Shown: positions 16,138-25,923 of the stretch, piece by piece
How positions within the stretch are numbered: position 1 is the stretch's first letter
Layout: each line of letters begins with the position of its first letter
The notes under the pieces: generated by a model
Seen by the model: only the letters and a program-made list of their open reading frames with translations
Told to the model about the DNA's origin: nothing
The model's database searches: none
Made by a program: the position numbers and the translations under genes
Source: an uncultured bacterium
GTDB taxonomy: Bacteria > Cyanobacteriota > Vampirovibrionia > Gastranaerophilales > Gastranaerophilaceae
NCBI GenBank assembly: GCA_949282215.1
Contig: CASDPF010000016.1
Coordinates: 1-37,658, forward strand
DNA: 37,658 bases
Reading direction: 5' to 3'

Positions 16138-16321
16138 AAACCTAGTTCAGCAGCAAAAATGATTAATGATTATTTCTCAAATGAACTAAGGAGAATGATA
16201 CATGATAAAATGAATAAAATCGTAATGTAGCAATGACTACAAATTTGATTTATTATCAAACTTGGCTGGACTTAGGTAGTGACGCTACCAAGAAAACTAA
16301 ATGACAAATGAATATTTTTAT
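16138..16321 (+). ncRNA. Candidate structured RNA or tRNA leader
   Basis: This gene-free stretch has three consecutive hairpins: TGTAG/CTACA (16226-16230 with 16237-16241), a perfect 6-base TTTGAT/ATCAAA (16244-16249 with 16255-16260), and CTT-A-GGTAG/CTACC-AAG (16271-16279 with 16285-16292). CTTGG (16261-16265) can also pair with CCAAG (16288-16292), giving an alternative fold to the third hairpin. Very short frames such as the 6-codon frame at 16211 are too small to support as genes. It may be the 5' leader of tRNA-Pro or an independent small RNA; no known RNA family was recognised. Confidence 0.3.
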
Positions 16322-16395
16322 CGGAATGTAGCGCAGCTTGGTAGCGCACCGTGTTCGGGACGCGGGGGTCGCAGGTTCAAATCCTGTCATTCCGA
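16322..16395 (+). tRNA. tRNA-Pro (anticodon CGG)
   Basis: A complete cloverleaf: acceptor CGGAATG pairs perfectly with CATTCCG, D stem GCGC/GCGC, anticodon stem CCGTG/CGCGG around the loop TTCGGGA (anticodon CGG, reading CCG), T stem GCAGG/CCTGT with loop TTCAAAT, discriminator A at 16395. C1-G72 is the bacterial tRNA-Pro identity pair. CCA is not encoded. It lies about 300 bases before the three-gene MBL cassette. Confidence 0.96.
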
Positions 16396-16691
16396 TTTTT
16401 GTATTTTAATTAAGAAAATAAATGTAAATAAACTAAATTATTACAATCTTTTGTTTAACTCATGAAAATGTCTATATTTTTTTAAGGACTTGAATAATAT
16501 AATAAAAAAGTAATAATAGAAATAGTAGTACAATTGATTGATGTGAAAAAATAACGACATATTATAATAAATGTTAAAATAAATATTAATTTCTTGAATT
16601 GCAAACATGACTGTAATACCATGAGTTTGTAGTTTAGGGATTATTTTAAATATTTTAATAGTCGGACTTTCATCATAATAGAAGGTTTAAT
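16396..16691. other. Gene-free AT-rich spacer before the MBL cassette
   Basis: About 296 bases with no supportable ORF, no second copy of the tRNA-Pro 3' end, and no strong promoter. AGAAGG at about 16679-16684 is the ribosome-binding site of the first cassette gene. Confidence 0.6.
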
Positions 16692-17399
16692 ATGAAGTAT
16701 AGTAATAAACAAGCATTATTTATTTTGACAGGATATAATTATCCTTCTGTAGATGATTTTGTGACAGCAGCGTCTGCTTCGGTTAATTGCAGTGAAATTT
16801 TGAAAGATTTTGAGGCTAAAGAAATTGATAGTATAAAAATTAATGGGCATCCTATTCCCAAAAATATGTTAGTCCCTCTGGTAGTCTTTTATCATAAAAA
16901 TAAAACTCATCAGATTCGTTTTAACAGATTGATGAAACAACTTGAGATTGCTACAAAAATTTATGAAGAAGAAAAAGATTACCTCGCAAATATTATACAA
17001 ACTTTTGCACAACTAAAGCTCCAAGACATTCATTCTCTGGAAATAAATTTTAGGGTTTATTGTGACAAAGGTGATGAGCGTTTGTGCTTTTTTAACCAAC
17101 AAATCAATGAACAACTTAATATTTTTAATTTCAACAAAGGTTTTGAAATTTTGCTACCGGTTGATTTGAGTGATACATTTGGCTGTAATGCTGGATATAC
17201 AATTGCCAAGACTGAAGAAGATGACAATGATAATAAACATATTTATGTTATTGAAGCCAGATATTCTTTCCCTTTTAAAACAGATAATGCTGATAGTGAA
17301 GGCAGAGTGATGGAATTAAAAGAATTTGTTCAAAAAATCCCTTCTATTTATGAACATTATAATAAAACATGTGAAGAGATTGTAAAATTATGCCACTAG
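16692..17399 (+). CDS. Unknown protein, first gene of the MBL cassette
   Basis: Not recognised. 235 residues, soluble, with no signal peptide or membrane segment. The N-terminal half is mixed, with a helical charged region (about 80-115, RLMKQLEIATKIYEEEKDYL). The C-terminal half reads as alternating beta strands (LEINFRVYCDK, GFEILLPVDLSD, IYVIEARYSFPF), followed by a final helix. The beta-rich second half and terminal helix distantly recall TIGR04255-type proteins, but this is a weak impression. The ATG has AGAAGG upstream. The gene overlaps the next by 10 bases, so the three genes are one translational unit. Its codons look more T-rich than those of the flanking conserved genes, which would fit acquisition; this was not computed. 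Confidence 0.8.
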   Translation: MKYSNKQALFILTGYNYPSVDDFVTAASASVNCSEILKDFEAKEIDSIKINGHPIPKNMLVPLVVFYHKNKTHQIRFNRLMKQLEIATKIYEEEKDYLANIIQTFAQLKLQDIHSLEINFRVYCDKGDERLCFFNQQINEQLNIFNFNKGFEILLPVDLSDTFGCNAGYTIAKTEEDDNDNKHIYVIEARYSFPFKTDNADSEGRVMELKEFVQKIPSIYEHYNKTCEEIVKLCH

Positions 17400-17932
17400 A
17401 TATTTCAAATGATTTATTAATACGTCCAATGTCCTATTCTCGTTTGACCAAGAGTTTGTTTGACGGTTACGAGCAATACGAGCAGTCGGAATTTCCAGAT
17501 ATGCCAATTCATCGTGCGGGAGAGTCATTCCTTGTTTCAGGTGATGAACTCATTCAGCAATATTATGTTGAAAAAAACGGTGATATTTCTCTCAAAAGCA
17601 GGTCTAAACTGTCATCGTCTTTTGAAAGCTATGAGATTGAACCGGTGCAAAAAACTGATGTAACTATGGCTGAAGTTGTTTCTTTTGATAACAATTATGT
17701 TGTAGCAAGAGTTTTCTTTAATGACCACCCGTCAACCAGAAAATTCAAAAAATCTTTTGTTAATATGTTAAAAAAACAAGATTTATTATATCAGGGTGCT
17801 GTTTTTAATATCGTTTCAAAGCAAAATGATGACGAACTTTCTATTAAAATAGAAAGATGCAGTGATTATATAAGTCCAAAAGTTAAAGATTTGTATGCAA
17901 AAATTACAGAGAGTATTGATGAGGAATGTTAG
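17390..17932 (+). CDS. Unknown protein, second gene of the MBL cassette
   Basis: Not recognised. 180 residues, acidic and soluble. Residues about 85-155 form a likely compact beta-barrel pattern (MAEVVSFDNNYVVARVFF, then a KKSFVNMLKKQDLLYQGAVF-like stretch and ELSIKIER), which could be an OB-like or SH3-like fold. The first 80 residues have a Tyr/Ser-rich region with no clear motif. No catalytic residues stand out, so a binding or regulatory partner of the neighbouring hydrolase is the simplest reading. It overlaps the first gene by 10 bases and the MBL gene by 7 bases, implying that the products are needed together. Confidence 0.8.
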   Translation: MPLDISNDLLIRPMSYSRLTKSLFDGYEQYEQSEFPDMPIHRAGESFLVSGDELIQQYYVEKNGDISLKSRSKLSSSFESYEIEPVQKTDVTMAEVVSFDNNYVVARVFFNDHPSTRKFKKSFVNMLKKQDLLYQGAVFNIVSKQNDDELSIKIERCSDYISPKVKDLYAKITESIDEEC

Positions 17933-18861
17933 AGTTATACTTTTTTAATGTCGGTCATGGGGATTCCATTGCAATAAAATTCCCGAATAATGAATGGGGA
18001 GTTATTGATTGTACCCTTTGTGACGGTCAAAGAGAACCAAATGTCTTACGATTTTTACAAAGAAATAATGTAGAACATTTAAAATTCATTTGTGTAACTC
18101 ACCCACATATTGACCATTTTTTAGGAATGGAAAGGATTGTAGAAAATTATAGTAATAATATAGATCATTTTATTTTATTCGATAATGGACAAAACTCCGT
18201 GTATGAAAGACAAGACTCGTCATTAAGAAGAGCATTAAGCACATTTGTAAATTTTTCAAATTCAAAAATCATTCTGGCTTCAGCAAGAGAAAAATACAAA
18301 GTTGGTGACATAGAGATAAATCTGCTAAATCCGAATTCCAAAATTTCAGAAGAACTTTTCGGAAGATATTTCGACGGCAGGCAAAAGTATGTTTTGAATA
18401 AACTCTCAGTGGTTATGTATTTTGAGTATCAAGGTCGCCATGTACTATTAAATGCTGATGTACCTCAAAAAGAGTGTACAGATTTTCTTAAAACTACCCC
18501 TGTAAAAGCTGATATTATGAAAATAAGCCACCACGGTTCTATACATAATAATTCAGAAAGTTTATTAACTACTATAGGCCGTGAAGGATGTATTTCTATT
18601 ATTTCATCCGACGGGAACCAAAAATATCCGTCTGTACCCCATGAAGATGTCTTAAACTGCCTGGAAAAACAATTATACAGTGATATTTTAAAAACTTTTG
18701 ATTTAAATGAGGTTCAAGCACCAGACCCAAACCTTGAAAGCATTGATGCCATTGACAGTATTTCTGAAATTTTAGACAACCCTGTTACTGATGGATATTT
18801 TAAGGTCGTAATTGATAATAATGGTCAAATCACTACCCAAGCTTTTGTAAATATATCATAA
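17926..18861 (+). CDS. ComEC/Rec2-like metallo-beta-lactamase-fold hydrolase
   Basis: 311 residues forming a stand-alone MBL domain of the kind found at the C-terminus of ComEC/Rec2. It begins with the strand LELYFFNVGHGDS (2-14). The metal site is HPHIDH (H59, H61, D63, H64), D178 in LLNADVP and H202-H203 in KISHHGS. The late YPSVPHEDVL (about 234-243) matches the NxYxHPxxxVL segment of ComEC. There are no membrane segments, so it is not a DNA channel. Such free MBL proteins may be nucleases or phosphodiesterases; several occur in defence operons. The start overlaps the previous gene by 7 bases. The fold is certain, the substrate unknown. Confidence 0.88.
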   Translation: MLELYFFNVGHGDSIAIKFPNNEWGVIDCTLCDGQREPNVLRFLQRNNVEHLKFICVTHPHIDHFLGMERIVENYSNNIDHFILFDNGQNSVYERQDSSLRRALSTFVNFSNSKIILASAREKYKVGDIEINLLNPNSKISEELFGRYFDGRQKYVLNKLSVVMYFEYQGRHVLLNADVPQKECTDFLKTTPVKADIMKISHHGSIHNNSESLLTTIGREGCISIISSDGNQKYPSVPHEDVLNCLEKQLYSDILKTFDLNEVQAPDPNLESIDAIDSISEILDNPVTDGYFKVVIDNNGQITTQAFVNIS

Positions 18862-18981
18862 AACCCTTATCACATCTCAGCAACTTATATTTACAGGTTA
18901 TCATTCTTGTATCTGGTTATAATAATAAAATCAGAATATAGCCTATAACCACACAATAAATAATAATTCAAATGAACTCTA

Positions 18982-20382
18982 TTATTGTAACTCTTTTACT
19001 AATAATGATTTTAAATTTTCAATTTTATCCAAGCTGTTGCTTTCAAAATAAATTCTCAACAAAGGTTCTGTACCGCTTGGTCTTACTAAAATCCAACTAT
19101 TATCATCATTAAGATATAATTTGACGCCATCTTTTGTATCTATATGCTTTACTTGGTATCCACCTACTGATTTATATAATTTGCATTTTTCAAGAACAGG
19201 TTTTACATCATCCTGTTTTTCAAGTTTTAGGTCAACCCTGTCATTATAAAAGTGAACACCTGCCAAAGAATAAAGTTTTTCCTGCAATTCACAAAGTGAA
19301 AGATTGTAGTATGCCATTGCTTCAAGGATTAATAAATTAGCAAGAATGCCGTCTTTTTCAGGAATATGCCCCTGAATACTCAGACCACCGCTTTCTTCTC
19401 CTGCAATTATCGGGTTATATTTACGCATTGCCTCCCCAACATGTTTAAACCCGACAGGAGTTTCTATTACCTCTACACCCACTTTCTCTGCAACTTTATC
19501 TAAAAGAAGACTTGCTCCTACGGTTTTTACAAGACAACCTTTGTAATTTTTATTTTCTTTTAAATGCATTAATAAAACAGCAATAATCTCATTAGGAGAA
19601 ACATATTCTCCTTTTTCATTAATTACTCCAAACCTGTCGCCATCGCCATCATTTGCCATTCCAACTGCACAATCGGAGTTCTTAATTAACTCTATCAAAT
19701 CACTCATAAACTTCGGTTTAGGCTCAGGCATTCCGCCCCCGAAATTTACATCATGCTCCATGTGCAATGACTTGTATGGTATTTTTACAAACTTCTCCAA
19801 CAATTCTGAAAAATACTCAATAGTTGCTGAGTATAAACCGTCAAATATAACTTTCTCGTGTTCGTTTAGGATAAAATCATGAATTTTCTCAAAATCAATT
19901 AATGATTGAATATGCTTATAATATTCATTTCTAAAATCAGTTTTTATAATCTTACCATCTGCAAACTTTTCAACTGATACCCCTATAAAAGAAACTATTT
20001 TATCCGTAATATCGCTTGTAGCAGGACCTGCATAATCCGGAATAAATTTTATGCCAAGATACTCAGGCGGATTATGGGAAGCTGTAAACATAAGTGCACA
20101 AGCATTCAATTCTTTTGCATTATAAGCAAGGATAGGTGTCGGTATAATTTTTTCACTATATAGAACTTGAAACCCAAGTTCAGACAAAATTTTTGCACTC
20201 TGCATAGAAAAAGTATCTGCCATATTTCTAGGGTCATACCCTATTATAAATTTTTTATCAGAACCAAAAGTTTCATAAACATACTTTCCTATAGCATTAG
20301 TTACTAAAGATACGTTTTCAGCATTAAACTCTTTACCTACAATCGCTCTCCAGCCATCTGTTCCAAATTTTATATCCGTCAT
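18982..20382 (-). CDS. Phosphoglucomutase/phosphomannomutase
   Basis: 466 residues, full length for the alpha-D-phosphohexomutase family. All four signatures are present: the phosphoserine loop TASHNP (100-105, Ser102), the metal loop DGDGDR (245-250), the sugar-binding GEESGG (328-333) and the phosphate-binding RPSGTEP (434-440). It converts hexose 1-phosphate to 6-phosphate, supplying glucose-1-P or mannose-1-P for polysaccharide and glycogen metabolism. The sugar-binding loop GEESGG suits PGM and PMM/PGM enzymes better than GlmM, but the choice cannot be settled by eye. The ATG at 20382 has GGAAGGA upstream. It stands alone on the minus strand, downstream-facing the MBL cassette. Confidence 0.93.
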   Translation of the reverse strand: MTDIKFGTDGWRAIVGKEFNAENVSLVTNAIGKYVYETFGSDKKFIIGYDPRNMADTFSMQSAKILSELGFQVLYSEKIIPTPILAYNAKELNACALMFTASHNPPEYLGIKFIPDYAGPATSDITDKIVSFIGVSVEKFADGKIIKTDFRNEYYKHIQSLIDFEKIHDFILNEHEKVIFDGLYSATIEYFSELLEKFVKIPYKSLHMEHDVNFGGGMPEPKPKFMSDLIELIKNSDCAVGMANDGDGDRFGVINEKGEYVSPNEIIAVLLMHLKENKNYKGCLVKTVGASLLLDKVAEKVGVEVIETPVGFKHVGEAMRKYNPIIAGEESGGLSIQGHIPEKDGILANLLILEAMAYYNLSLCELQEKLYSLAGVHFYNDRVDLKLEKQDDVKPVLEKCKLYKSVGGYQVKHIDTKDGVKLYLNDDNSWILVRPSGTEPLLRIYFESNSLDKIENLKSLLVKELQ

Positions 20383-22594: not shown

Positions 22595-22697
22595 CAAAAT
22601 TGTCAAAATTTTTACAAAATGTTCAAATTTCTTTACACCAAATTTTTTATTAGCAAAAATTTTTTATTTCATATTTTATAAAATCATCGGGAGTTAT

Positions 22698-23282
22698 ATG
22701 AATATACAGAGATTAACATACAAACCGCTAATTCAAAATTCTCAAAAAATAAGAACCTCACATTCAGTAAAAAAGTTTTTTAATTTTTTCCAAATATATG
22801 GCAAAGGCAGAAAAGAACTCTTTTTGAATTTGAGAGCTATTGTAGATACCTGTTCATCCATCTCTAACGGATGCGGACTGAGAATTGCAGAAGATAGCAA
22901 AGGCAACATTCTTGCAGGATACACATACAAAATAAGAAAAAACAGGCGTGAAGAACGCAGTATGTATATCGACGGACTCGCCAGAAATTTATCTGACTCG
23001 AAAAAAGATGTATCCAAAAACTTAATGACTGAAATATATGAAGACATGAAAAAAACAGCCATTAAGAAAAAAGTTAAAGAAATTACGCTATTTGTACATG
23101 CAGGAGAAGACGGACTAAAAAATAATTACAAAAGACTGGGATTTAAAGAAGACCATCGTTGTAATATTGAAAAAGTATATTTAATGAGAGTTCGTCTGGA
23201 AGATTTTCTTAATAATACATATTTTAAATGCAGAAAATTTAAAGAACTGATGAATTTGAAAAGTTTTATTATAAAGCCCTAA
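22698..23282 (+). CDS. GNAT-like acetyltransferase family protein
   Basis: 194 residues with the GNAT plan. Strand RIAEDSKGNILAGYTYKI (about 54-71) is followed by YIDGLARN, the position of the family VxxLxVxP strand, then a helix KNLMTEIYEDMKKTA (about 101-115) and the strand EITLFVHA. The ending NNYKRLGFKED (about 137-147) is the typical GNAT xxYxxxGF motif. The acetyl-CoA loop RxxGxG/A is not obvious between YIDGLARN and the helix, so activity is uncertain. The N-terminus is basic (MNIQRLTYKPLIQ) without the Ser-Phe motif. The ATG has GGGAG upstream. It converges on the repeat-protein gene 22 bases away. Confidence 0.7.
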   Translation: MNIQRLTYKPLIQNSQKIRTSHSVKKFFNFFQIYGKGRKELFLNLRAIVDTCSSISNGCGLRIAEDSKGNILAGYTYKIRKNRREERSMYIDGLARNLSDSKKDVSKNLMTEIYEDMKKTAIKKKVKEITLFVHAGEDGLKNNYKRLGFKEDHRCNIEKVYLMRVRLEDFLNNTYFKCRKFKELMNLKSFIIKP

Positions 23283-23304
23283 AATTAAAACTTATTTATT
23301 CAGC

Positions 23305-25059
23305 TTATTTTGCAAAAAATCCCGAAATTTTACTTTGAATTTCTTTTAATACATCATTTAAGCCCTGCATATCATTTTCAGCATTTTTCATAGCTGCAGT
23401 AAGCATTTTATTGCACTCTTGCATTAAAGCTTTATATTCTTTACTTGAAGAATAAAGTTTATTATTTTCTTTTTTAGTCTGTTTTTTTTCAATCAATTCT
23501 GTTTTTTTAGACTTTATAATTTGTCTTGGCTGATTTATATATTTATGAAACTCCTGAATTTCTTCTTTAGCTTTTTTTACCAATGGTTCTATATTCAATT
23601 CTTTAAGTTCAACATCACTGTAATATCTAAGCACAGGAGGAAGCATTGTCGGATAAGAAGGATTGAAATTTTTAACAACCATATCCTTATCTACCAATAC
23701 ATACTCGCTATTACCGTTTTTTGACACACATATACGAATCAGGTTACTATCTCCGGAATTATTCATTTTCAAAACAGAAATTTTTTCCCCGTCGTCGTTT
23801 TTAAAAATAAAACCTCTTTGTCCGCCTATTGCCCCCCATTTCGGATAAGAAGTTTTTAAATCCGATATAGCATGAGAATTTAGATTAGAAAAATTATCTG
23901 TAATAGCTCTATATGCATTATCAATAACTTCAATATCAGAAGCAATAAGGCCATCCAGCCTACCAGTTACCGGACCAATAGCTTTTTGATATAAACTATT
24001 TGCAATATACTTATCAAAATCTTCAAGTTTTTTTTGATAATCTGAAGTTAATTTTTCAAACCTTGGTAAAACTTCTTTGACGGATAATTCATCATAAAAA
24101 AGTAATTTAGGTGGTATTATACTAAAATTTTTCGAATTAAAATTTGAAACGAGTTGGTTATCTTTTATCAAAAAGCCATCTTGAATTTCATCATTTTTAT
24201 CTAAGACCATAATCCTCGTAAGTTTACCATGTTCAGGATGCTCAAACTGTTTATATAAAACCTGATTTTGTTCATCTCCAATATTTTTTAAAATATGAGT
24301 AGGTTGTTTCGCTTGAAGCTTATAATCGTTGAAATCTATTTTTAATTTCAAAGCAGTTTTGCGAGAAAACGATTTTAAAACTTCATCTATATGATTATAT
24401 AAAAATTCAATGTCTTTCATTCGATTAACTGTATCTGAATTAAAATTAAAAGTATTAGGTTTTAAATACATTCCATCAAACTTGTTTAAAAACTGCCTGA
24501 ATTTAAGCATTGCAAAATCTAAATCATCTAATATATTCTTTAAATTTTCCTCAACCGGTTTATCAAAAGTTAAAACATTTGCATTAGCAGGAAATACGAA
24601 TACACTATTTTTATTAGTATCCTCAAGAAGTTGTTCAGAATTTTTTACAGTAAACGAATCCAAAACAAATTTTTCATCCCATAGACTACTGCCTCTACGA
24701 ACAACAACTTTTATTAAATTTCGCCCGTCTTTGCCATCAGGCACTCTCACTAAAATTGTTTTATTTTTATCGCCACAATTATGAAAAGTAAACCCTCGAC
24801 CAGATTTAAAATTTTTATATTGTTTTTCAATAATTTCAAGACCTTCAGGACTTTTCTCAGAAATCTTTGCTAAAATATCATTATACGCATTTGCAATAGA
24901 AGATATTGATAATGCAGTATCTCTGGTTAACCGTTCTAAATTAGCGGTAAAAGCAAAACTATCATTGGATTTTTTTACGTTATAACGGTTTTGAACAAAA
25001 TAATTATTATTAACAGGTTTATTGGAGGATCTATAATTATTTAGATAAGTAATTTTCAT
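23305..25059 (-). CDS. Unknown protein with three diverged internal repeats
   Basis: Not recognised. 584 residues, soluble. The N-terminal 40 residues are Asn/Tyr/Lys-rich and end in SFAFTAN (34-40), the Ser-Phe motif. Three copies of a domain of about 150 residues follow, at about 50-190, 212-352 and 375-508. Each has a helix, a GFxF-like strand (GRGFTFHN in copy 1, RGFIFKN in copy 3), a strand resembling NLIKVVV/LTRIMVL/NLIRICV, then a FVLDSFTVKN/FLIKDNQLV/YVLVDKDMV strand, then a PP(K/V)LxxY-type turn and a helix ending in KFRQFL/DFDKYI/EFHKYI. The last 70 residues are a charged coiled coil. No Shine-Dalgarno is seen before the ATG. Role unknown. Confidence 0.78.
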   Translation of the reverse strand: MKITYLNNYRSSNKPVNNNYFVQNRYNVKKSNDSFAFTANLERLTRDTALSISSIANAYNDILAKISEKSPEGLEIIEKQYKNFKSGRGFTFHNCGDKNKTILVRVPDGKDGRNLIKVVVRRGSSLWDEKFVLDSFTVKNSEQLLEDTNKNSVFVFPANANVLTFDKPVEENLKNILDDLDFAMLKFRQFLNKFDGMYLKPNTFNFNSDTVNRMKDIEFLYNHIDEVLKSFSRKTALKLKIDFNDYKLQAKQPTHILKNIGDEQNQVLYKQFEHPEHGKLTRIMVLDKNDEIQDGFLIKDNQLVSNFNSKNFSIIPPKLLFYDELSVKEVLPRFEKLTSDYQKKLEDFDKYIANSLYQKAIGPVTGRLDGLIASDIEVIDNAYRAITDNFSNLNSHAISDLKTSYPKWGAIGGQRGFIFKNDDGEKISVLKMNNSGDSNLIRICVSKNGNSEYVLVDKDMVVKNFNPSYPTMLPPVLRYYSDVELKELNIEPLVKKAKEEIQEFHKYINQPRQIIKSKKTELIEKKQTKKENNKLYSSSKEYKALMQECNKMLTAAMKNAENDMQGLNDVLKEIQSKISGFFAK

Positions 25060-25160
25060 ATAAAGTATAAAACCGGTAAATAAAATTTTTGCCCTAAAAA
25101 TCTTAAATAAAACTATTATAACTTATTGCCAAAATACGAAACATATATTACATACTAGTA

Positions 25161-25886
25161 TTATTTAATCATTTTATTATAAAGCCTCAAAAACCAAGGC
25201 TCGGAATTTTCATCCAATCTTTTATCCATGAAAGTGATATACTCAGGAAAATCCCCGCGAAATTTATTTATTTTATCAATTACAGCTCTTTCAGGTTTAT
25301 TATTATAATCCATTATTCTATAACCGTTTTTTAATTGAAAAGGAACAGCCATATTATCAGAAGCCAGAAAAACATCAGTATATATGCCTTTGGAACAAGC
25401 AATTGCTTTATCCATAAGTATTGTAGCCACATGATTTTTTCTATAGTCTTTTCTCACTGCAACAGAATCTACATAACAAGTTTTATTATCAAACAAGCCT
25501 GAAATATCTTTAAAAGTATTAGTAACAACCGCTCCACACAATTCACCTACAGAGTTTCTGGCTTCTAACACACTAAGATTATCATCATTATCAATAAACA
25601 TTTGTTTATAGTAATTTTTAATTCTATCTAACATAGAAATATATTTATTATAATTTTTTGGATCTTTATATTGAATAAGGGAAGGATCCTTCGTATTATT
25701 TATAAAGTTATCAGCAAAAAACTTCGTAATTTCTTTTAGGTTTCTCTCATCTGCAATATCATTATCTGTAAGTTCTTTTACAAATAATGCACCCTTTTTT
25801 GTCATAATCCGAAAATGCGGGATTGGATTATTTTTGGAACAAAAATTTATAGAATACTTATCATTTGATACTTTATTTACTAACAA
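25161..25886 (-). CDS. GNAT family N-acetyltransferase
   Basis: A GTG at 25895 and a TTG at 25886 are both in frame; the AAGGTGAG site overlaps the GTG and is well placed for the TTG, which gives 241 residues. Residues about 105-200 (GTG numbering) form a GNAT domain: strand GELCGAVVTN, strand TCYVDSVAVRKDY, then the acetyl-CoA loop RKNHVA, a variant of RxxGxG/A with His for the first Gly, then helix TILMDKAI. VFLASDNMAVPFQLKNGYRI gives the final Nx4AxxxYxxxGF-like element. The N-terminus contains SINFCSKNN (15-23), a variant of the Ser-Phe motif. It is the last gene before tRNA-Leu; the target of acetylation is unknown. Confidence 0.78.
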   Translation of the reverse strand: MLVNKVSNDKYSINFCSKNNPIPHFRIMTKKGALFVKELTDNDIADERNLKEITKFFADNFINNTKDPSLIQYKDPKNYNKYISMLDRIKNYYKQMFIDNDDNLSVLEARNSVGELCGAVVTNTFKDISGLFDNKTCYVDSVAVRKDYRKNHVATILMDKAIACSKGIYTDVFLASDNMAVPFQLKNGYRIMDYNNKPERAVIDKINKFRGDFPEYITFMDKRLDENSEPWFLRLYNKMIK

Positions 25887-25923
25887 GATTCTCACCTTTT
25901 ATAGATTATTTAGAATAATACAT

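Follow-up and report, generated by a model that had tools for sequence, protein, structure and literature searches.

A 37,658-nucleotide stretch of DNA (the window) from a gut bacterium of the Gastranaerophilales, with a genome of 2.19 Mb, carries a three-gene module that is real, mobile and conserved and for which the analysis found no described counterpart. Its gene structure, metal site, empty insertion site, conserved linkage and exchange of partners can be read directly from the sequences. The third gene encodes a free metallo-beta-lactamase (MBL) protein that is probably a metal-dependent DNase of the ComEC/Rec2 type. We see an even chance that the cassette is a small, horizontally acquired MBL-nuclease effector module, anti-phage or abortive, that is controlled by its first two genes.

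The cassette is an insertion between conserved genes

The open reading frames (Table 1) bear out the three overlapping genes of the preliminary description, with overlaps of 10 bases between gene 1 and gene 2 and of 7 bases between gene 2 and gene 3. Gene 1 starts 295 bases behind tRNA-Pro(CGG), and genes for a HAD phosphatase and a phosphoglucomutase, both kept in relatives, flank the cassette, which is therefore placed as described, between conserved genes and downstream of a tRNA. The tRNA is the sole Rfam element at the locus, promoter and terminator scans gave results not above shuffles, and sequence composition does not clearly mark the cassette boundary. No recognised defence gene adjoins the window copy, and neither a duplicated tRNA 3' end (att site) nor an integrase gene was found there when looked for.

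Table 1. Features of the cassette and its borders in the window.
Feature	Positions	Strand	Description
tRNA-Pro(CGG)	16321..16396	+	Left border of the insertion spot, conserved
Cassette block	16406..18981		2,576 bp without counterpart in sister species G010
Gene 1	16692..17399	+	235 aa; predicted two-repeat beta-alpha-beta3-alpha saddle; apparent shared component, weakly TIGR04255-like
Gene 2	17390..17932	+	180 aa; N-terminal ~40 residues low-confidence; C-terminal part beta-rich, residues 90-178 weakly DUF3006-like
Gene 3	17926..18861	+	311 aa; free ComEC/Rec2-type metallo-beta-lactamase hydrolase, predicted DNase
Phosphoglucomutase/phosphomannomutase gene	18982..20382	-	Right border, conserved

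Evidence for acquisition comes from the sister species G010, in which 18 bp, made up of 9 bp on the tRNA-Pro side and 9 bp on the other, lie between tRNA-Pro and the phosphoglucomutase stop codon; the phosphoglucomutase there is 93% identical to that of the window. The same spot holds short, unrelated content in G220, G158 and G141. Gene 1 is missing from all 12 other genomes of the genus and present in 4 of 288 in the family. Mobility is deduced from the empty site, as gene overlap and tRNA proximity alone would be insufficient, and insertion is a more economical account than repeated loss. We conclude that, as judged by sequence comparison, the cassette is a mobile block, recently acquired by horizontal transfer. 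The preliminary description had allowed for the genes being core to the whole lineage, or for genes 1 and 2 belonging to a housekeeping family; instead, the genes are absent from the sister species and rare in the family, and neither gene 1 nor gene 2 matches such a family.

A second variable stretch next to a tRNA lies at window positions 22650-25900, beside tRNA-Leu. Of its three ORFs, which encode 194, 584 and 244 aa, the last is GNAT-like; none is matched by blastn in G158 or G198, and in both genomes the flanks of the stretch lie close together.

The complete trio is found in three genomes (that of the window, G338 and G317), which represent three genera of one family and carry it at unrelated sites. 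In both other genomes gene 1 is followed by a gene-2 homologue and an MBL of 327-329 aa; gene 2 and the MBL are separated by 12 bases, with no overlap, in G317, and a tRNA-Ala lies on the same strand ~0.9 kb upstream of the trio in G338. The trio MBLs are 35-37% identical overall and share a near-identical start (MLxLxFFNVGHGDSIAIxFPxxxWGxIDC), and the gene-1 proteins of the three loci form one clade (95/97). A profile of the trio MBLs (E 1e-25) detects the type in 3 of 367 genomes, only with genes 1 and 2. Because two other genera have the trio in an unchanged gene order and its site is empty in a sister species, the arrangement is beyond chance, and the view of the trio as one acquired unit that moves together holds.

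In searches for relatives outside the Gastranaerophilales, IMG/VR gave none with genes 1, 2 and 3 and the MBL profile, plasmids and phages yielded only MBLs of ~22-27% identity, and GTDB contigs gave just the G338 and G317 trio loci already found; peptide-seed scans detect close relatives only. In a phylum sample of 146 genomes, gene 1 had no match outside the family, which does not exclude a wider spread. Preceding the G317 trio (L065 408-4608) are genes for a DnaB_C-like ATPase, for a short RT with hits to the RT/retron models of PADLOC and for a WYL/WCX regulator, along with two HNH-like ORFs.

Gene 3 is a probable ComEC/Rec2-type DNase

Gene 3 has the complete set of metal ligands that the preliminary description reported, HPHIDH (residues 59-64), D178 and HH202-203, and apart from I62 every one of these residues is the same in all three trio MBLs. 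This ligand set and a significant profile match place it, at the domain level, among the ComEC/Rec2-type MBL hydrolases. Its nearest NCBIfam model is ComEC/Rec2 (3.6e-12), where it stays below the cut-off of the full-length ComEC equivalog because the channel part is absent. The MBL profile matches solved ComEC structures in the PDB and also the phosphorylcholine esterase CbpE. Among PADLOC models it matches LmuA (3.7e-20) and RTasMBL (4.8e-14), plus Avs1a and PDC-M48B; these matches to Lamassu, DRT, Avs1a and PDC-M48B models support the proposed kinship with ComEC-type nucleases of defence. It scores below the cut-offs for AVAST type 1 (Avs1a; NF041809; 44.9 against 420 bits) and the 6A-MBL system (NF058524; 25 against 220 bits).

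Two other roles for such a protein can be weighed here. As an accessory of DNA uptake or processing, the free Rec2-type domain would trim incoming DNA with no link to defence, in keeping with its nearest NCBIfam model and with free MBL and DUF3006 units being common on plasmids. We consider this improbable, as a longer ComEC-like gene (G000:C14, 805-aa frame, 29% identical) already exists in the genome, the trio is rare and unlinked to com genes, and gene 1 occurs without an MBL too. Alternatively, the MBL could have a different phosphoester as its substrate instead of DNA (a phospholipid head group, RNA or a cyclic nucleotide), with both partner types hitting the membrane or another target. 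The CbpE match would fit, as would the resemblance of the partners at sister loci to membrane proteins (see below), but ComEC and defence DNases match better and neither a signal peptide nor a membrane segment was noticed in gene 3, making this reading very improbable.

The cassette differs from protease-gated MBL nucleases

Several bacterial immune systems are turning out to use MBL nucleases as a common effector, and these nucleases have so far been described as protease-activated (PMC12799240). Tuck et al. reported that the related MBLs of Hachiman and AVAST are DNases that are inactive under two loops and opened by a protease (PMC12799240). Like Hachiman (HamM), AVAST (Avs1a), Lamassu, DRT and the caspase-nuclease (Canu) loci (PMC12799240), the cassette has a ComEC-type MBL as putative effector, with detectable profile similarity. 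Aligned with ComEC domains from its own genome and from related ones, gene 3 shows two short insertions, around residues 86-110 and 137-157, and extends ~55 residues further at its C terminus. As far as the ComEC alignment alone can place them, the insertions lie roughly where the two published gating loops do, but in profile coordinates they are much shorter than those of Avs1a or LmuA; gated nuclease-protease pairs carry long, disordered ones with conserved cleavage residues over the active site.

The gene content differs. Trypsin-like and caspase proteases, helicases, STAND ATPases, SMC and RT are all missing from the cassette, whose MBL has members of the gene 1 and gene 2 families as partners instead. 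The adjacent protease gene that defines nuclease-protease pairs of the HamM/Avs1a/LmuA/CanC type is absent: neither gene 1 nor gene 2 matches a protease, and the flanking genes encode the HAD phosphatase and phosphoglucomutase. The published activation route therefore does not fit the cassette as it stands. If gene 3 is held inactive, another route is needed, for which genes 1 and 2 are the natural candidates.

Gene 2 weakly resembles DUF3006

Genes 1 and 2 had been described as lacking a recognisable family. This stands insofar as neither has a significant Pfam, NCBIfam or PADLOC match, and is qualified by one weak profile-profile match for each, to TIGR04255 and DUF3006, respectively. For gene 2, the predicted structure was unusable (pLDDT 44), and residues 90-178 weakly match the whole of DUF3006 (score 20.8, P 0.006; controls <= 14.3). 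At the Pfam gathering score, DUF3006 (PF11213) matched neither gene 2 nor anything in the three trio genomes. Weak gene 2 matches that all sit in frames of 417 to 1005 aa were dropped.

Free ComEC-type MBLs and DUF3006 form a recurrent pair on plasmids, with the DUF3006 gene directly behind the MBL in the plasmid loci examined, which agrees with gene 2 adjoining such an MBL in the cassette. The pairs on Firmicutes and Klebsiella plasmids share with the cassette the MBL type (~25-27% identity) and a small beta-domain gene. In contrast to DUF3006, which follows the MBL, gene 2 precedes it and has an N-terminal extension, and the plasmid loci examined contain no annotated gene-1 homologue. On an Exiguobacterium plasmid (L113 1507-2622), a SIR2-family gene comes right after the pair.

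Gene 1 appears to be a common component with exchangeable partners

The gene 1 model (pLDDT 87, pTM 0.85) comprises two beta-alpha-beta3-alpha repeats that form a predicted saddle resembling TBP or guanidino-kinase domains. Foldseek retrieved McsB and TBP (E about 3e-4 to 8e-4) as well as viral TBP-like proteins and an unnamed 202-aa viral protein (3.7e-8), and structural comparison ranked McsB and guanidino kinases best (Z up to 9.7, rmsd 4.1). Given their low TM-scores and identities of close to 10%, these matches indicate a common arrangement that implies no function. Guanidino (arginine/creatine) kinases need conserved catalytic arginines. A kinase role was rejected because no arginine is among the invariant columns of 12 gene-1 proteins (F23, N119, L131, N135, I138, N148, F151, Y169, I171, K173 and Y185). 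A TBP-like fold is joined to a nuclease in RNase HIII and RNase LS-type defence RNases (PMC3710099); gene 1, which Foldseek sets near TBP, recalls this combination but has its best Z (9.7) to McsB and guanidino kinases, and the nuclease family is not the same.

The profile-profile match of gene 1 to TIGR04255 is collinear (score 24.9, P 0.0085), with controls reaching at most 16.5 when column-shuffled and 16.0 when reversed; the 13 other pairings of the families compared all gave P >= 0.13. No gene-1 member reaches the TIGR04255 family cut-off of 30 bits (best E 0.012). As column shuffling is a lenient control, we treat this match and that to DUF3006 as leads, not proof; a full-text literature search returned no paper on either family. 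TIGR04255 proteins resemble gene 1 in length and in the varying type of gene downstream, but an MBL partner was noticed at none of 12 TIGR04255 loci examined. TIGR04255 genes (L097-L108, L092) are mostly closely trailed or overlapped by diverse genes (HEAT-like, HTH, WDGxxA-type), which often carry Ser/Thr-rich N-terminal tails.

A gene-1 profile search found the family in 12 of 383 genomes of the order. At eight of the nine loci other than the trios, the last 4 to 25 bases of gene 1 also belong to an ORF of 134-185 aa, whose product combines a polar N-terminal tail with coiled-coil-like stretches and a single hydrophobic segment. The ninth, in G029 (L059 4983-6089), has only a 53-aa hydrophobic ORF downstream, then tRNA-Thr, and is possibly a decayed gene pair. 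The surroundings of these other gene-1 loci include phage genes (G120, G269, G299), HigBA (G269), an MmeI-like restriction enzyme (G250) and MqsRA (G362). Since gene 2 and the MBL in the trio are replaced by a coiled-coil/one-TM protein at eight of the nine others, the partner switches right behind gene 1, which, from its gene neighbourhoods, looks like a shared component with swappable partners. More tentatively, gene 1 may define an undescribed modular conflict-system family, in which a TBP-like saddle adaptor, perhaps distant TIGR04255 kin, would control interchangeable, overlapping effectors encoded downstream (an MBL DNase in one branch, a coiled-coil membrane protein in the rest).

These neighbourhoods also bear on toxin-antitoxin or mobile-element stabilisation, in which gene 3 (or the TM protein) would be a toxin neutralised by genes 1 and 2 and serving mainly self-maintenance. 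The overlapping genes with the predicted toxic enzyme last, the sporadic spread, and the location in prophages and beside HigBA and MqsRA are all consistent with it. We nevertheless regard it as rather unlikely: three components with swappable partners are atypical of classical toxin-antitoxin pairs, and the closest described kin of the MBL are defence effectors.

Proposed mechanism

Defence is the likeliest role of the trio, at about one half by our estimate, with toxin-antitoxin-like maintenance as the main rival; the two overlap. Counting against defence, free ComEC-type MBLs are found outside known defence systems too, the trio is known from three genomes only, and both remote profile matches are weak. 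Under defence, we infer the following binding partners, trigger and benefit. Gene 3 would be a metal-dependent DNase of the ComEC/Rec2 MBL type, bound by gene 2, a small beta-domain protein that would parallel the DUF3006 encoded beside other free ComEC-type MBLs. Gene 1 would be a shared sensor or adaptor that keeps the partner encoded downstream silent. Upon phage infection or entry of a mobile element, gene 1 would release or activate this partner, and the freed nuclease would destroy phage and/or host DNA. At sister loci, the gene-1 family is coupled to the coiled-coil/one-TM protein, and it is this protein that would act, on the membrane instead.

A protease-free cassette of this kind would point to another means of restraining an MBL nuclease. 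If gene 1 indeed controls both nuclease and membrane effectors and is kin to TIGR04255, it would also provide a testable role for TIGR04255.
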